The position numbers and the translations under genes are program-made. DNA of 20,123 nucleotides from a virus, in IMG/VR virus record IMGVR_UViG_3300020439_000110, positions 1-20,123 of that record. One strand, 5' to 3'. Under the pieces are notes generated by a model. The model worked only from the letters and a program-made list of their open reading frames with translations, was not told the origin of the DNA and ran no database searches. Positions 1 to 20,123 of this stretch are shown here, one piece after another (position 1 is the stretch's first letter; each line of letters begins with the position of its first letter).

Positions 1-595
1 CATCTGCTTTTAAGAATTGAGATGAAGTTCCACCAGATTTTACTAATGATGTTGCAGTTACAACACCCGTAATATCAATATTACCAGTCCCAGTAATATC
101 ATTAGAGTTGAGATTTAAATCTCCACCAAGTTGTGGTGAGGTATCGTCAGAAACTTGAGCAAGTCCACCACCAGATCCAGAAGTAGTGACAGTTGTAATA
201 CCAGTAATTCTTCCGTTAGCATCAACTGTTATGACAGGTGTCAGTCCAGTGCTTCCGTAAGTTGCTGCAGAAGCACCAGTAAGTCCCGTTAAACTAGCAC
301 CTGAACCGGCAAATGAAGTAGCAGTTACTGTTCCATCAACATCCAGTTTTGTGGTTGGTATTTCTGAACCGATACCAACATTACCGGCAGTAAAATATGC
401 ATTATATGTATTTGTTCCAGTACCAACTCTGAAAGGGTTGATAGCAATAACTGTGGTTCCAACACCTACATTTTTGGATGCGTAGAGATATCCATCATAG
501 GTATTAAGAGCTATCTCACCTAAAGGAACCTGGTCTGGTGTAGGAATCTTGCCCTCTACAGAAGACCTTTTCAGTCTAATTTTTGGATCTGCCAT
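1..595 (-). CDS. Tail-fibre-like virion structural protein, N-terminal 198 codons (runs off the left edge)
   Basis: The frame opens at ATG 595 and stays open to base 1, so the C-terminus is missing. The start has a GAGGG Shine-Dalgarno (600-604) a few bases upstream. The protein begins MADPKIRLKRSSVEGKIPTP, then LGEIALNTYDGYLYASK. This short LKR..VEGKIP..LGEIALN layout resembles the anchoring N-termini of cyanophage fibres, related in style to the Mtd N-terminal domain. It is followed by VGIGSEIPTTKLDVDGTV (about residues 95-112), a VDANGRITGI segment, PQLGGDLNLNSNDITG, and finally GGTSSQFLKAD at the edge. These Gly/Thr/Asn-rich units are typical of trimeric beta-helical phage fibres. GTSSQFLKAD recurs in the fibre at the other end of the window. 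The likely role is a baseplate-attached fibre or fibre segment; receptor and partner are unknown. It stands alone behind its own late-promoter-like element and a palindromic leader. Confidence 0.85.
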   Translation of the reverse strand, partial: MADPKIRLKRSSVEGKIPTPDQVPLGEIALNTYDGYLYASKNVGVGTTVIAINPFRVGTGTNTYNAYFTAGNVGIGSEIPTTKLDVDGTVTATSFAGSGASLTGLTGASAATYGSTGLTPVITVDANGRITGITTVTTSGSGGGLAQVSDDTSPQLGGDLNLNSNDITGTGNIDITGVVTATSLVKSGGTSSQFLKAD

Positions 596-3734: not shown

Positions 3735-4735
3735 CAGAACGTATTACCACTAAATCCAAAATCATCACCTTCTTCAATTAGTGCATTGTCCGCAGCATCA
3801 ATTACATAAATTGGTTCGCCTGCCACATGATCCGTGATGGTTGTTCCATCTTGACCTCTATTAACAGTCAACTTATTGCCGTTAATTGTTTTGATAAAGA
3901 TCTGCTCCCCATTGAGATCAACATACGACTTAGCAGTCAATCCACTGACATCAGCAACTTCAAATGTCTTAGTTGTTGTTGTAATATCTGCAGATATTGT
4001 AGTTGCTGGATCTCCAGTATAATTTTTGATTGCTCTTGGAACAACAGAATAAGAAACTTCTCTTGTTGTATTTGAAAGATCTGTTCCAGTGAGATAACTG
4101 ACAGTTGCCTTCTTGATGATATCCTTGGTTGCAGAGGAAGAAGGACCAAACAGGTAAGTCTTGGCAGTAAATCTCAAAGTATAAAGAAGAACTCTTCTTT
4201 GAGAAAAATCTCCCTCATAATCATCCTGCATCGTAATATTTTCGAGCACTACAGGAATATCTCTCTTTTCCTGAATTGCTTCAACCAACTCTACCGATAA
4301 GTTATATGCTGGTTGGAAATATGGAAGAATTTGTTCAACAATTTGAAGAGCATCATCATTCAGTTTAGTCATGATGCTCAGTTCAAATTGCATATTGTAT
4401 GGAACTGGCATATAAGTCTTTTTTGACTCAGATCCATCATTAGGATCTTTTACGGTAAATGCCGTTGTAGTGGTTACTTTTCTTGAAGGATCATATGTAA
4501 GTCCAGTAAATTCAAACGACATCCTTGGAAGAGTAATTGCGGATGGTTTGTTTAAATCTGGAGATTGTTCAATCCTTGCTAAAAATTTCTGAGTAGGTCC
4601 ATATGCCAGAGGAACTTTTACAACGCTAGCAACACTATCAGAAGAATCTTTGTGCTGAATTGATATATTATTAAAAAGAGTACCAAAAGATATAATGGTT
4701 CTCCTTAAAATTTCGTTGTAAAAATACTCAAACAT
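3734..4735 (-). CDS. 15: Tail completion / sheath stabiliser protein, gp15-like
   Basis: gp15 caps the tail tube and sheath as a hexamer and forms the interface to the neck. The start MFEYFYNEILRRTIISFGTL with FNNISI parallels T4 gp15 MFGYFYNSSFRRYATLMGDL. The hallmark QIVEQILPYFQPAYN (131-145) is nearly identical to the T4 segment. RMSFEFTGLTYDP and FSQRRVLLYTLRFTAKTYLF also fit. The conserved part covers about residues 1-240. A C-terminal addition (about 248-312) holds a YVDLNGEQIFIKTI, then LTVNRGQDGT module also seen in the DUF4815 protein, before an acidic tail ending FSGNTF. Length is 333 against 272 in T4. AGGA (4743-4746) lies seven bases before ATG 4735, behind a CCTAAATA late element. 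Confidence 0.92.
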   Translation of the reverse strand: MFEYFYNEILRRTIISFGTLFNNISIQHKDSSDSVASVVKVPLAYGPTQKFLARIEQSPDLNKPSAITLPRMSFEFTGLTYDPSRKVTTTTAFTVKDPNDGSESKKTYMPVPYNMQFELSIMTKLNDDALQIVEQILPYFQPAYNLSVELVEAIQEKRDIPVVLENITMQDDYEGDFSQRRVLLYTLRFTAKTYLFGPSSSATKDIIKKATVSYLTGTDLSNTTREVSYSVVPRAIKNYTGDPATTISADITTTTKTFEVADVSGLTAKSYVDLNGEQIFIKTINGNKLTVNRGQDGTTITDHVAGEPIYVIDAADNALIEEGDDFGFSGNTF

Positions 4736-15011: not shown

Positions 15012-16565
15012 TTAGAACTGCAAAATAACTTTTATGTCTTCCTTTTGATTTGACGATCTTGTAATAGAAGGTCTATTATCAACGTAAACTATACTACCAG
15101 AGTGCTTCTTGACCTCAGGATTGGCAACACCATTTGCAAAAGTTTGACCAAGATAGTATGTCCTATTATTTATTACGGTAGATATACCTGTAAAGTTTGT
15201 ATCAATTGTCAAGTTTAATCCGGTAGATGGAGTAACAGTTAAAGAACCACCTGATCCTGGAGATGCAGTAAACTCTTGCAATTCATATCCATAAGTTGGA
15301 TTAGTTTGGGCAGTTCCTACAGTAGCAAATCCTGCCAGTGATCTATCTTGCCAGAATTTAAGAACTCCAGTTGTAGAATCATAATTTACAACTCTTCCAA
15401 CAGCAGTTGTTCCTGTAGAAATAGTTTGTGTAAAATAAGAGTCTGGATCAAATGTAGCCGTGCTATATCCAGTTCCGACTAATTTTAAAGCACCCAGAGC
15501 ACTTGCTTTGTCCGAAGTGAGAATATCAGTTGATCCAAATTGTTGAGGATTTTCTACGATACCAATCCTTGCAATTTGATTTCCTGTTATGAAATCTGGG
15601 TTGGTATTGTCGTTCTCAATTCTTGAATAAAGAAGTACATTATATGCACCGAGTTCTCTGTAAATATTTGCACCATGTCCACCTTGAGGTGGAATAATTA
15701 CATTAAACTCCGGTCTTGTAGTTCCTGTAGGAACTCCTCCTCCAACCAAGTCTACGTTACCATAAGTATATCCCGATCCTTGATCAGAAACTGTTATTGA
15801 ACTCACCTGCTGATTACCATCAATTGTAATCGTACATTCTGCTCCAGACCCATCACCTCTAATTGGAACATTGGTGTATGTTGTATTTGCAGGTCCTAAT
15901 CCAATACCTCTGTTCGTAATAGTGATAATTTTAATTGACCCATCAACAGCATTATCTCTGACTGCAGAGTTTTCTGTAGAAGTCAACCATTCAGAAGGAA
16001 CTGGAAGATATTCTGTTGATTCAAATTTAGCAACATCACTTGGTCTGATACTATAAAGATATTTCCAAATATAACCATCCCCACTTGTTCCAGCAGATCT
16101 TGGTTCTAAATCAGTAAATGTTGGTTCATCTAAAGATGGTTTAGCAGTTGGATTATCTGGGTCAATTCCGTTATGAAGACAAATATAAACTCTGAAATCA
16201 CTATTCATTACAATATAATTTGCAAGATATAGTGATGTAGAACCAGAAACTACTGCAGTATTTGTTCTACTGTAGTCATGACGATACATGTCATAGGTAG
16301 TTCCAGAAGACCAAACTCTTTTAGGAACAACTTGTCTAATGTCTGCCGCATTAATTTTTTTGAGAGCAACCATCGTGTCCCAATAATCACTCTCCTGATC
16401 AAAGTTATCTTTTGGAGATGGTGGATCTTGATTCCAATCCTCCTGATAATCTGCAGGATTTGGCAATCCAATAAAAGAATAGTAAGAATTACTAGAATTA
16501 GTAACTCCAGCTACAAAATTTCCTGCATTTAATATTCTAATCTGATCAGTTATAATGGCAGCCAT
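15012..16565 (-). CDS. 8: Baseplate wedge protein gp8-like, with expanded internal segments
   Basis: gp8 is a dimeric component of the T4 baseplate wedge between gp10/gp7 and gp6. Matches to T4 gp8 appear in order: DTMVALKKINAADIRQVVPK with RVW (63-85; T4 has AVIPRRDWG), GDGYIWKYLYSIRPSDV (162-178; T4 GDGYVWEYLFEIPPDV), EYLPVPSEW (185-193), QIARIGIVENP (330-340; T4 RQISIITNP) and the diagnostic end KKHSGSIVYVDNRPSI, then KEDIKVILQF (486-517). Length 517 exceeds the 334 of T4. Extra material lies at about 205-300, with a GSGYTYGNVDLVGGG repeat, and at about 345-480. The ATG at 16565 has no good Shine-Dalgarno but sits about 18 bases downstream of ACTAAATA. Confidence 0.92.
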   Translation of the reverse strand: MAAIITDQIRILNAGNFVAGVTNSSNSYYSFIGLPNPADYQEDWNQDPPSPKDNFDQESDYWDTMVALKKINAADIRQVVPKRVWSSGTTYDMYRHDYSRTNTAVVSGSTSLYLANYIVMNSDFRVYICLHNGIDPDNPTAKPSLDEPTFTDLEPRSAGTSGDGYIWKYLYSIRPSDVAKFESTEYLPVPSEWLTSTENSAVRDNAVDGSIKIITITNRGIGLGPANTTYTNVPIRGDGSGAECTITIDGNQQVSSITVSDQGSGYTYGNVDLVGGGVPTGTTRPEFNVIIPPQGGHGANIYRELGAYNVLLYSRIENDNTNPDFITGNQIARIGIVENPQQFGSTDILTSDKASALGALKLVGTGYSTATFDPDSYFTQTISTGTTAVGRVVNYDSTTGVLKFWQDRSLAGFATVGTAQTNPTYGYELQEFTASPGSGGSLTVTPSTGLNLTIDTNFTGISTVINNRTYYLGQTFANGVANPEVKKHSGSIVYVDNRPSITRSSNQKEDIKVILQF

Positions 16566-16596: not shown

Positions 16597-19500
16597 TTAA
16601 CCAACAATTTCCTGGAGTGTAATGTATGAAATAAATCTTTCATTACCACTTCCATTGGTATCGCTGACTGTTCTATTACCAAACCAACTCATATTAGTAT
16701 ATGGGTAAATTGTTGGGTAATATGTCACAATACCTGTTGTATTTGGACTGTCCAGGAAATTAATAATTGATAATTTTTCTGCAGTGGTGGTACTATCGTC
16801 ACTATAACTTACGACTGGTGTTGTAATTCCCCGAATTCTATTATCGGGATTATTATAATATCCGGAATCGGCATTTCCTGGTGTTACAGTTACAATTCCA
16901 GTTGCATAATTACCACTAACTCTTGCAAAAGAAATACCAGTATTATAAGCAGCAGAACTGCTATTAAATTCTCCAGTAAGATCATAAGTAACAAGAACTT
17001 TATTTGAAGGACTGCTGAGATTGATCTCAACACCCATGTCAGTAACGGCATTATGTTGAACTGCCGTCAATGAAGTCGTAAAAGTAGCGTCAGTACTGTA
17101 ACCAACAACCTGACGAATAGATCCTTTTACACCTTCTGATATGGTTGCTGTTCCTCTAACGTGTAATTCTGTTGATGGATTTGAAATACCAATACCGACC
17201 TTTGAAGAAATAATATCATAATATTCTACTTTCCCCTTCGATGAATAGAGTTGGTCGGAGTTCGGAATAAATGCCCTGCTTCCATCCCTGGTTATTGCAA
17301 GTCCGTTTGCATAATAATAATATCCATATTCTTTTGATGCAAAAAATTCATATTTTTCATGCACATCTGAGTAGTGATACATTTCAGATGTTCCATTACC
17401 CAGATTCGTTCCCGTAACGAATACTCGGCCATCATAAGATGATTGAATTGTTTTTCGAGATTCTAGAACTGCATTGTAAGCACCTATAGGGTCATCTACT
17501 GGAATTGTTTCTAATAGATTTAAATCACCATCGAGAATATTAATTCTACTATCCTCAAAAGCATTACTCTCATAATTTGAGACAAATATTCGTGTCCCAT
17601 CACCAGAAATCTCAAGACCATACCCAGATGCATATCCATTAAGATCAGTTTTAAGTCCAACTTGAGTATATGTATTTCCAACTCTTGAAAATTTATAAAT
17701 GTATCCATTATTCATGTAGGGTTGAGCAACAATTATTGTATCTCCATCATCACTTATAACAGTATTAAAACCAAAGTAATCAAGTGATTCTTGATATAAT
17801 GGATCTGGTGTTAGAGTAGCAATCCCAGTAAAGGTTGATCCATTACGTTCAATGACATGAACACGACCAGATTTAATAGTAGTGCCTATACCTACATTAC
17901 TTAATCGATCACGTTCGGCACCAACTACAAATATCTCCCCATTAGCACTCATATCTAATGAGCAACCAAATTCAGCACTACTACTACCCATTCCTTCAGT
18001 TGCACCCCATCCTGTCAGAGTATCATACTCTATGAGTCCTAATTGTGACAAAGTATTTCCAGATCTTTGCCACACTACTATAGTATTTCCAGCACCAATA
18101 GCAGCACGGGCAGCACCAGATGAGAATGCAAATATATTCCCATCATCACTCATAACACAATCTGCTGGTAGATCACTACTATCATATCCAGCTATTACAG
18201 TAGTATCAGTTACAAGTCCGACAAAATCGTAATTATTTCCATTTTTATCAAATACAGATATAGTTCCTTCTTCTGTATCTGTATTAATGCCTACAATCAT
18301 TACTGAAGAACCATCACTATTACAAGCAACGTTGCAACCAAAATAATTTTGATCACCTGTTGTTGAAGTTGATGTTGTTATAGTTCCGACTAAAGTACTA
18401 GTATGTCCAGAAAGTCTTACATTTCCACTTGAAATATCAACACCGTTGACAAATTCCGAAACATCAACATTATGATTAAATGTTGATGTATTGCCACTAG
18501 AAACATTAGAAGAAACACTCAAAGTTCCATTAACGTTTACTTTTCCTGTAACAGATAGAGCATCAAGATTTTCCAAATCTGCGTTGATTGTTACAGAACT
18601 TGAACCATACTGGTGAAGTTTTGGACTAGTTCCAATACCAATTCTAGGACTTCTTATTACCGTATTATAACGAGGAGGACCATAGTCTGGGGGATTTAAG
18701 AAAGTATTGATACCAACACCAAGAGTTGGATTTAAACCAACTACACTGCTGTTAGATTCAGCATAATTATTACCATCATAATTTCCCACTATCTTCAATA
18801 TCATTTCACCATCTATATGATCATCAACATCTCCACGACCCGTTATGTCCCACATTCCATATCCATGAGGTCCCATTCCAAAAGTAACAGCAGCACCAGT
18901 TAATATCTCAGTATTAGTTGTAGCATTACTTATAGTAACCTCACCAGAACCAATAGCAGTTACCTTAGTATTTGCCGCAATAAATGTACTAGCTCCAACA
19001 GGATAATCATTTCCTACAATAACTTGAGAAGTTGTAACTCCAGTAAGAATTGTTGTGGTTATTCCAACATTAACGTTTTGGGTATATGGTGCCAGATACA
19101 TTAATTCTGCTCTGTCAAACAGTTCACTCCAATCAGAATTGGTATATGTTCCATTGCCCAGGATTAAATCCTGGGTATAACTTGAACCGTTCCATATACT
19201 CCTGGTGTTAGATTGTACTCTTTGAACCAACTTAGCATCAGCAGGAGATACAACTCCATCTTGATCCATGTCAAAAAATCCCAGATTGCTTCTAACATAC
19301 TGATAAATTTCATCATCAGTTTGGTAAATTGCCGAAGAAGGTACAGAACTTCCAGTTGTAATTGCAGTACCAACCTGAGTCGGTCTATATGAATCAAAAC
19401 CCGATGCATAATCATAATTAGAATCACCAGTTTGTTTTACTTGAAGAACTGGTTTATTATCATCACTACTCTTTGCAAGAAAAGAACCCTCGTCAGAAGT

Positions 19501-20123
19501 ACTATCAAAGATAACTGTATCTTGGAATGTAGAAACACCTGAAACATTCAGAGTACCATCAACGTCTAATTTTGATGTTGGGTCTGTAGTACCAATACCG
19601 ATATTGCCACCTGCAGTATCATAGTAGACATTATCTCCATCTAATGACCAAAGTCCATCAACAGTAGCGGAACTATTGATAGTAACTATGCCTGTAGGAC
19701 CACCAGTTAAAGTGATATTGGTTCCAGCACTAATTGATGTTATAATGCCAGACAAACTGGATCCATCACTTGAAGGTGCTAAGTAATCAGTTCCAGATGT
19801 TGCTGCTAAAATAGTTGAACCGTCAGACTTAACAATACCATTGATAGCAGCAACTACAGGATCAGTTTCTGTATAAGAAGTAAGATATGTATTACTATCA
19901 ACGGAACCATCTGCTTTTAAGAACTGTGATGAAGTTCCAGTAGTAGTTGAGAATCCAGCAGCAGTTATTGTATGTGACGTAGTAGAACCTAATCCAACTA
20001 CATTATCAAGAGTCTGAGTCTCAGTGTAAGAAGTTAAATATGTAGAACTATCAACGGAACCATCTGCTTTTAAGAACTGTGATGAAGTTCCAGTAGTAGT
20101 TGAGAATCCAGCAGCAGTTATTG
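16597..20123 (-). CDS. Giant tail-fibre/adhesin with Ca-loop-like motifs and a beta-propeller (5' end beyond the right edge)
   Basis: The frame is open from the right edge to TAA 16597, giving at least 1174 codons. Residue numbers below count from an internal TTG at 19755. Order: 51-residue fibre repeats (GTSSQFLKADGSVDS, then YLTSYTET); a SDGSSLSGIITSISAGTNIT segment; VGIG-type module GIGTTDPTSKLDVDGT; a dockerin/EF-hand-like loop DMDQDGVVSPAD (162-173); a second loop-like motif DITGRGDVDDHID (303-315); more fibre sequence; a probable seven-bladed FG-GAP-like propeller (467-851); a second module VGIGISNPSTELHVRGT; and a C-terminal fibre head (SPSNKVLVTYDLTGEF, then ISFARVSG, ending YITLQEIVG). 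The product is probably a surface-exposed, receptor-contacting fibre. T4 has gene 7 before gene 8; no gp7 similarity was recognised here. The domain calls rest on motif reading. Confidence 0.85.
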   Translation of the reverse strand, partial: ITAAGFSTTTGTSSQFLKADGSVDSSTYLTSYTETQTLDNVVGLGSTTSHTITAAGFSTTTGTSSQFLKADGSVDSNTYLTSYTETDPVVAAINGIVKSDGSTILAATSGTDYLAPSSDGSSLSGIITSISAGTNITLTGGPTGIVTINSSATVDGLWSLDGDNVYYDTAGGNIGIGTTDPTSKLDVDGTLNVSGVSTFQDTVIFDSTSDEGSFLAKSSDDNKPVLQVKQTGDSNYDYASGFDSYRPTQVGTAITTGSSVPSSAIYQTDDEIYQYVRSNLGFFDMDQDGVVSPADAKLVQRVQSNTRSIWNGSSYTQDLILGNGTYTNSDWSELFDRAELMYLAPYTQNVNVGITTTILTGVTTSQVIVGNDYPVGASTFIAANTKVTAIGSGEVTISNATTNTEILTGAAVTFGMGPHGYGMWDITGRGDVDDHIDGEMILKIVGNYDGNNYAESNSSVVGLNPTLGVGINTFLNPPDYGPPRYNTVIRSPRIGIGTSPKLHQYGSSSVTINADLENLDALSVTGKVNVNGTLSVSSNVSSGNTSTFNHNVDVSEFVNGVDISSGNVRLSGHTSTLVGTITTSTSTTGDQNYFGCNVACNSDGSSVMIVGINTDTEEGTISVFDKNGNNYDFVGLVTDTTVIAGYDSSDLPADCVMSDDGNIFAFSSGAARAAIGAGNTIVVWQRSGNTLSQLGLIEYDTLTGWGATEGMGSSSAEFGCSLDMSANGEIFVVGAERDRLSNVGIGTTIKSGRVHVIERNGSTFTGIATLTPDPLYQESLDYFGFNTVISDDGDTIIVAQPYMNNGYIYKFSRVGNTYTQVGLKTDLNGYASGYGLEISGDGTRIFVSNYESNAFEDSRINILDGDLNLLETIPVDDPIGAYNAVLESRKTIQSSYDGRVFVTGTNLGNGTSEMYHYSDVHEKYEFFASKEYGYYYYANGLAITRDGSRAFIPNSDQLYSSKGKVEYYDIISSKVGIGISNPSTELHVRGTATISEGVKGSIRQVVGYSTDATFTTSLTAVQHNAVTDMGVEINLSSPSNKVLVTYDLTGEFNSSSAAYNTGISFARVSGNYATGIVTVTPGNADSGYYNNPDNRIRGITTPVVSYSDDSTTTAEKLSIINFLDSPNTTGIVTYYPTIYPYTNMSWFGNRTVSDTNGSGNERFISYITLQEIVG
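19894..20123 (-). repeat. Tandem coding repeat, 153-base period, in the right-hand fibre gene
   Basis: Bases 19894-19970 and 20047-20123 are identical over 77 bases, offset by 153 bases (51 codons). The intervening bases (19971-20046) code for the rest of the unit, QTLDNVVGLGSTTSH. A degenerate third copy begins left of 19894, where the unit turns into DPVVAAINGIVKSDG. The second copy reaches the right edge, so more copies may follow. The repeat is in frame and keeps the reading frame on unequal crossover. Confidence 0.85.

Follow-up and report, generated by a model that had tools for sequence, protein, structure and literature searches.

Beta-propellers occur in several proven or putative receptor-binding proteins of phages, among them the phi11 RBP, PRD1 P2 and PhiKZ gp131C (PMC4901313). 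The phi11 RBP has a platform composed of three propellers, with a probable pocket for a sugar (PMC4901313).

Propellers of the Pfam FG-GAP_2 family (PF14312) are also present in the isolated phages S-TIM5, S-MbCM6, S-SCSM2R and Vibrio phage nt-1. Like the domain described here, S-TIM5 gp054, the 'TolB' protein of S-SCSM2R and the 'FG-GAP repeat protein' of nt-1 are FG-GAP_2 propellers with six to seven blades detected; unlike it, they stand alone or are borne on a different carrier protein. A literature search, largely without subscription journals, yielded no paper on FG-GAP propellers in phage fibres. What guides the choice of T4-like cyanophages between strains of Synechococcus and Prochlorococcus is poorly known, and a propeller on a cyanophage fibre would bear on this choice if it binds the host surface. 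Here, we describe such a domain, identified by family profiles and structure prediction, in a probable tail fibre of a marine cyanophage.

The contig and the carrier ORF

The window, i.e. the whole stretch of DNA analysed, is a single virus contig of 20,123 bases. Its gene content is that of a T4-like cyanophage structural cluster (gp8, a VrlC-like protein, gp13, gp14, gp15 and gp16), and the nearest relatives of its genes are found in Synechococcus phages Bellamy and S-SM2. The ORF that carries the propeller lies next to gp8 (Table 1). Because this ORF runs off the contig, it has no proven start codon, and its N-terminal anchor, hence its attachment to the tail, lies outside the sequence seen.

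The two ends of the contig share a 32-base match with two mismatches (window 1–32 against about 19908–20092). A fused circular contig was considered, as one and the same fibre repeat, read in one direction, lies at both ends, and was rejected: the ends have only 32-base repeats in common, and T4-like cyanophage genomes in this survey are about 170–240 kb in size. The same fibre repeat at both ends probably broke the assembly.

Table 1. Coordinates of the carrier ORF, its domain parts and the neighbouring gp8 gene in the window
Feature	Position	Strand	Basis or remark
Propeller-bearing fibre-like ORF, 1174 aa	16597..20121	-	Adjoins gp8 on upstream side; 5' end beyond contig edge
gp8 baseplate wedge subunit, marker of the slot	15012..16565	-	PHROG 438
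Stem: repeated GTSSQFLKADGSVDS and VGIG fibre modules with dockerin-like insert	18403..20121	-	Sequence
Complete predicted seven-bladed FG-GAP_2 beta-propeller, including N-terminal closing strand	17209..18402	-	Profiles and AlphaFold2 (AF2) model
N-terminal strand TSTLVGTI, predicted to complete blade 7 (velcro closure)	18379..18402	-	DSSP of model, residues 7–14; alignment
Blade 1 (YFGCNV..NSDG..VMIVG)	18205..18333	-	Blade HMM, AF2 model
Blade 2 (SDDG..FAFSSG)	18028..18159	-	Blade HMM, AF2 model
Blade 3 (EFGCSLDMSANGEIFVVGA), canonical FG-GAP_2 blade	17812..17961	-	Pfam match, blade HMM, AF2 model
Blade 4 (YFGFNTVISDDGDTIIVAQP)	17650..17766	-	Blade HMM, AF2 model
Blade 5 (GYGLEISGDGTRIFVSN)	17500..17619	-	Blade HMM, AF2 model
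Blade 6 (SYDGRVFVTGT), most degenerate	17341..17451	-	AF2 model; weak in blade HMM
Blade 7, three strands plus N-terminal strand	17209..17298	-	Blade HMM, AF2 model
VGIG-type connecting module, propeller to tip	17146..17205	-	Sequence
C-terminal tip domain	16600..17145	-	63–66% identity to fibres with unrelated shaft

Family assignment of the propeller domain

A preliminary description of this DNA had proposed a propeller at 17206–18357, recognized by seven [ST]-x-[DN]-G loops. This interval is an open stretch of 384 residues and reads as described, but the domain begins about 45 bases further upstream, with the closing strand. Six of the loops are strict (SDDG, SANG, SDDG, SGDG, SYDG and TRDG), at residues 538, 605, 670, 719, 775 and 824 of a numbering that is arbitrary, being counted from an internal TTG; NSDG departs from the pattern, with Asn in front, though it forms the same loop. 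Six loops that fit the motif are followed by the reported hydrophobic strand, where the expected number is 0.31; in 20,000 shuffles, a count of six was never reached.

The search for a propeller family gave a positive result, as FG-GAP_2 matched the window domain with 25.5 bits, above the curated (gathering) cut-off of 23; the originally proposed interval alone scored 23.8 bits. Direct searches of sequence collections with the window domain as the sole query found no close relatives, because propeller blades diverge fast. Relatives were gathered from IMG/VR using a degenerate DNA form of the window's best blade, and the strict blade motif was matched in at least 120 contig stretches, nearly all of which fall in multi-blade ORFs. 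A blade HMM built from other viral contigs, without any window sequence, scored 89.5 bits on the window domain (best of 2,000 shuffles, 9.6) and found blades 1–5 and 7 in register at the right spacing, and blade 6 as a trace. FG-GAP_2 matched all 25 of the 25 aligned domains (the window and 24 viral relatives). These results establish the family of the domain. As in Pfam FG-GAP_2 propellers generally, the blade motif is FGxxhxhSxDGxxhxVGA, the spacing is about 50–65 residues and the blades number seven; unlike typical members, the window domain has a single canonical blade, blade 3, while blades 2 and 5–7 are degenerate.

Predicted fold

The single-sequence AlphaFold2 model of the domain was of low confidence (pLDDT 46), and its leading PDB matches were already propellers. 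When 24 aligned viral relatives were included, the model reached a pLDDT of 78.5 and a pTM of 0.87; it is tied to the choice of relatives, since these were picked by the FG-GAP motif, whereas the single-sequence model is independent of that choice. In the second model, the strands assigned by DSSP make up six complete blades, and the seventh consists of the C-terminal strands and is closed by residues 7–14. The motif of the closing strand TSTLVGTI is that with which the inner blades end (NYDFVGLV, TYTQVGLK), and the N-terminal segment of the relatives in the alignment likewise repeats the final-strand motif of their own inner blades.

The PDB matches of the second model were mainly seven-bladed propellers of the WD40 type, and among its viral structure matches are FG-GAP proteins from both giant viruses and tailed phages. 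No beta-helix or unrelated fold was seen among the top PDB fold matches, which are propellers. The earlier reading of a full, closed propeller of seven blades thus agrees with a confident model closed by its N-terminal strand, and the prediction of a closed seven-bladed FG-GAP_2 beta-propeller is well supported.

The gene slot next to gp8

The gp8 gene of Bellamy and of S-SM2 is preceded by gp7, which encodes about 4,000 residues. Among the 75 relatives with readable upstream sequence, the conserved gp7 end directly precedes gp8 in 61, and another ORF does so in 14. In 6 of these 14 relatives, the extra gene is preceded by a recognizable gp7 end, indicating that accessory genes, including several for fibres, can be accommodated in the slot. 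The blade HMM gave no match at E<=10 on the ORFs of the gp8-neighbour loci L002–L083, suggesting that a propeller is rare in this slot. Six slot ORFs (L006, L041, L051, L060, L064 and L065) have a common N-terminal module, MARxGINTGSxxNDxTGxxLRxAGxxINxNF, and differing distal parts; this module is likely their common anchor.

The gp7 C-terminal domain (..YSWGKI..LKxKNY) is absent from the end of the window ORF. The ordinary fibre modules that had been noted around the propeller are present, namely the VGIG and GTSSQFLKADG modules. The window ORF is most likely an accessory fibre, because it lacks the gp7 end, contains ordinary fibre repeats and has a tip in common with fibres of another shaft; its identity as a tail fibre is accordingly likely.

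As the end of gp7 normally occupies the slot directly before gp8, the position of the ORF would also suit the C-terminal part of an unusual gp7 (the baseplate wedge initiator), whose propeller would then decorate the rim of the baseplate. In addition, gp7 of another T4-like cyanophage (L208) has two seven-bladed propellers and gp7 of Synechococcus phage S-MbCM6 has one, and the window propeller clusters, in a tree built from propeller domains, with those of L208 gp7 and of a further cyanophage fibre (L209), with a support of 0.99 and identities of 24–28%. We retain this alternative because of the propellers inside these two gp7 proteins, but regard it as improbable: the absence of the gp7 end, which is conserved in the 61 relatives and retained in L208 after the second propeller, lowers it, and the stem consists of ordinary fibre repeats while the tip is that of free fibres. 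The gp7 proteins of L208 and S-MbCM6 are like the window protein in bearing the same propeller family on a presumed virion protein of a T4-like cyanophage, with L208 in the same clade; they differ in that their propellers are inserted inside baseplate gp7 and not in a fibre. Relative to the Bellamy protein, one of the L208 propellers forms a clean insertion, at Bellamy position 3894.

Mosaic make-up of the probable fibre

A search for fibres with and without the insert identified the same layout in the fibre of the T4-like cyanophage L209 (IMG/VR). This fibre, of 750 residues, is ordered as in the window: stem, seven FG-GAP_2 blades, GIGT connector and C-terminal tip, with 28% identity between the two propellers. 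Unlike the window gene, it lies near psbA and glycosyltransferase genes and not beside gp8. Phage S-SRM01 matches both flanks of the L209 fibre gene with only about 200 bases between them, indicating that the fibre is an extra gene in L209.

The tip of the window fibre is 63–66% identical to the tips of fibres with a wholly different shaft. Since the tip is thus found on unrelated shafts, these proteins are mosaics. Phage proteins gain and lose propellers and tips and exchange them with one another. In the L204–L206 fibres, dozens of NNFxGxxAGxxNTTG repeats are followed by the same tip as in the window fibre.

The stem of the window fibre contains two dockerin-like calcium-loop motifs, DMDQDGVVSPADAKLV and DITGRGDVDDHIDGEMI, at window 19225–19272 and 18799–18849 (minus strand), about 125 residues apart. 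The match of the stem to Pfam Dockerin_1 was weak (E 0.09), and among ORFs longer than 250 aa in the scanned loci, this one alone has the dockerin-like motif.

Blades of this kind were also observed in larger arrays and proteins. In the L102 record (a 202 kb phage, G055), roughly ten FG-GAP propeller matches lie at about 27–50 kb, most of them in adjacent genes of about 530–580 aa. Giant virion ORFs of 2,500–4,300 aa with FG-GAP blades were seen in L098, L106, L109, L123, L137 and others, where the blades begin near residue 2,100–2,200, a position that recurs across many contigs; the giant ORF of L109 matches PHROG 10938. With similar propellers in many other marine phages, the window propeller is a member of an under-described class and is not wholly new. 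This class of phage FG-GAP_2 propeller proteins seems to be common in the sea and little described.

Proposed role

We favour, with some reserve, the view that the domain is a closed seven-bladed FG-GAP_2 propeller placed below the tip of a T4-like cyanophage accessory fibre, where it would bind a host-surface ligand and aid adsorption. In this model, the fibre gene would lie between the baseplate genes gp7 and gp8, and its product would read, in order, repeat stem, propeller, short VGIG connector and beta-rich tip. By analogy with the phage phi11 RBP, a fibre trimer on the virion could display three propellers around its axis. The loop face or the central cavity of each propeller might then bind a glycan or a protein on the cyanobacterial surface, and this binding would help adsorption and may take part in host choice.

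Contact with the receptor may instead be made by the tip domain, which lies beyond the propeller. The propeller is subterminal and the tip is the last domain, with its high identity to fibres of a different shaft, as would be expected if the propeller were a structural spacer or hub only and the C-terminal tip recognized the host. Conservation of the tip across shafts would, however, equally suit a generic module that closes the trimer, and a propeller is a costly and variable structure to use as a spacer, besides recurring in many phage proteins that are unrelated; we consider a pure spacer unlikely.

Among phage tail propellers are several enzymes, such as the endosialidases, and the window propeller could by that precedent trim surface glycans as a glycosidase or lyase. 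No sialidase-type Asp-box motif was found in the window domain by motif search, no Pfam enzyme family matched at E<=10, and the closest sequence relatives are FG-GAP_2 repeats, which in general are not enzymes. An enzymatic role is accordingly very hard to credit, and ligand binding by the propeller remains our preferred reading. The propeller is a discrete, soluble-looking domain that some phages have and their close relatives lack, which makes it readily amenable to a direct test of binding.

Comparison with known systems

The phi11 RBP (five blades), PRD1 P2 (five) and PhiKZ gp131C (seven) resemble the window protein in having a propeller in a receptor-binding or baseplate-rim protein (PMC4901313). 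The phi11 RBP and PRD1 P2 differ from it in blade number, and none of the three belongs to a common sequence family with it, as far as tested.

The profile of the viral relatives had integrin alpha chains as its best solved natural structures (integrin alpha-M, E=3e-12), which makes the comparison with integrins valid at the level of the fold family. The integrin-alpha-like layout suggested at the outset therefore holds for the fold family and not for the calcium loops: DxDxDG loops were absent from the window domain in a motif search, and PF01839, the integrin-type FG-GAP family, was not reported for it in the Pfam search. The window domain is also without an integrin partner and a MIDAS domain, unlike the integrin alpha head, with which it has the predicted seven-bladed FG-GAP propeller in common. 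Tentatively, FG-GAP_2 propellers could serve marine tailed phages as a widespread and exchangeable cassette for host recognition, moving between fibres, gp7 and other giant virion proteins; if so, they would correspond in phages to the integrin head, a parallel so far not described as such.
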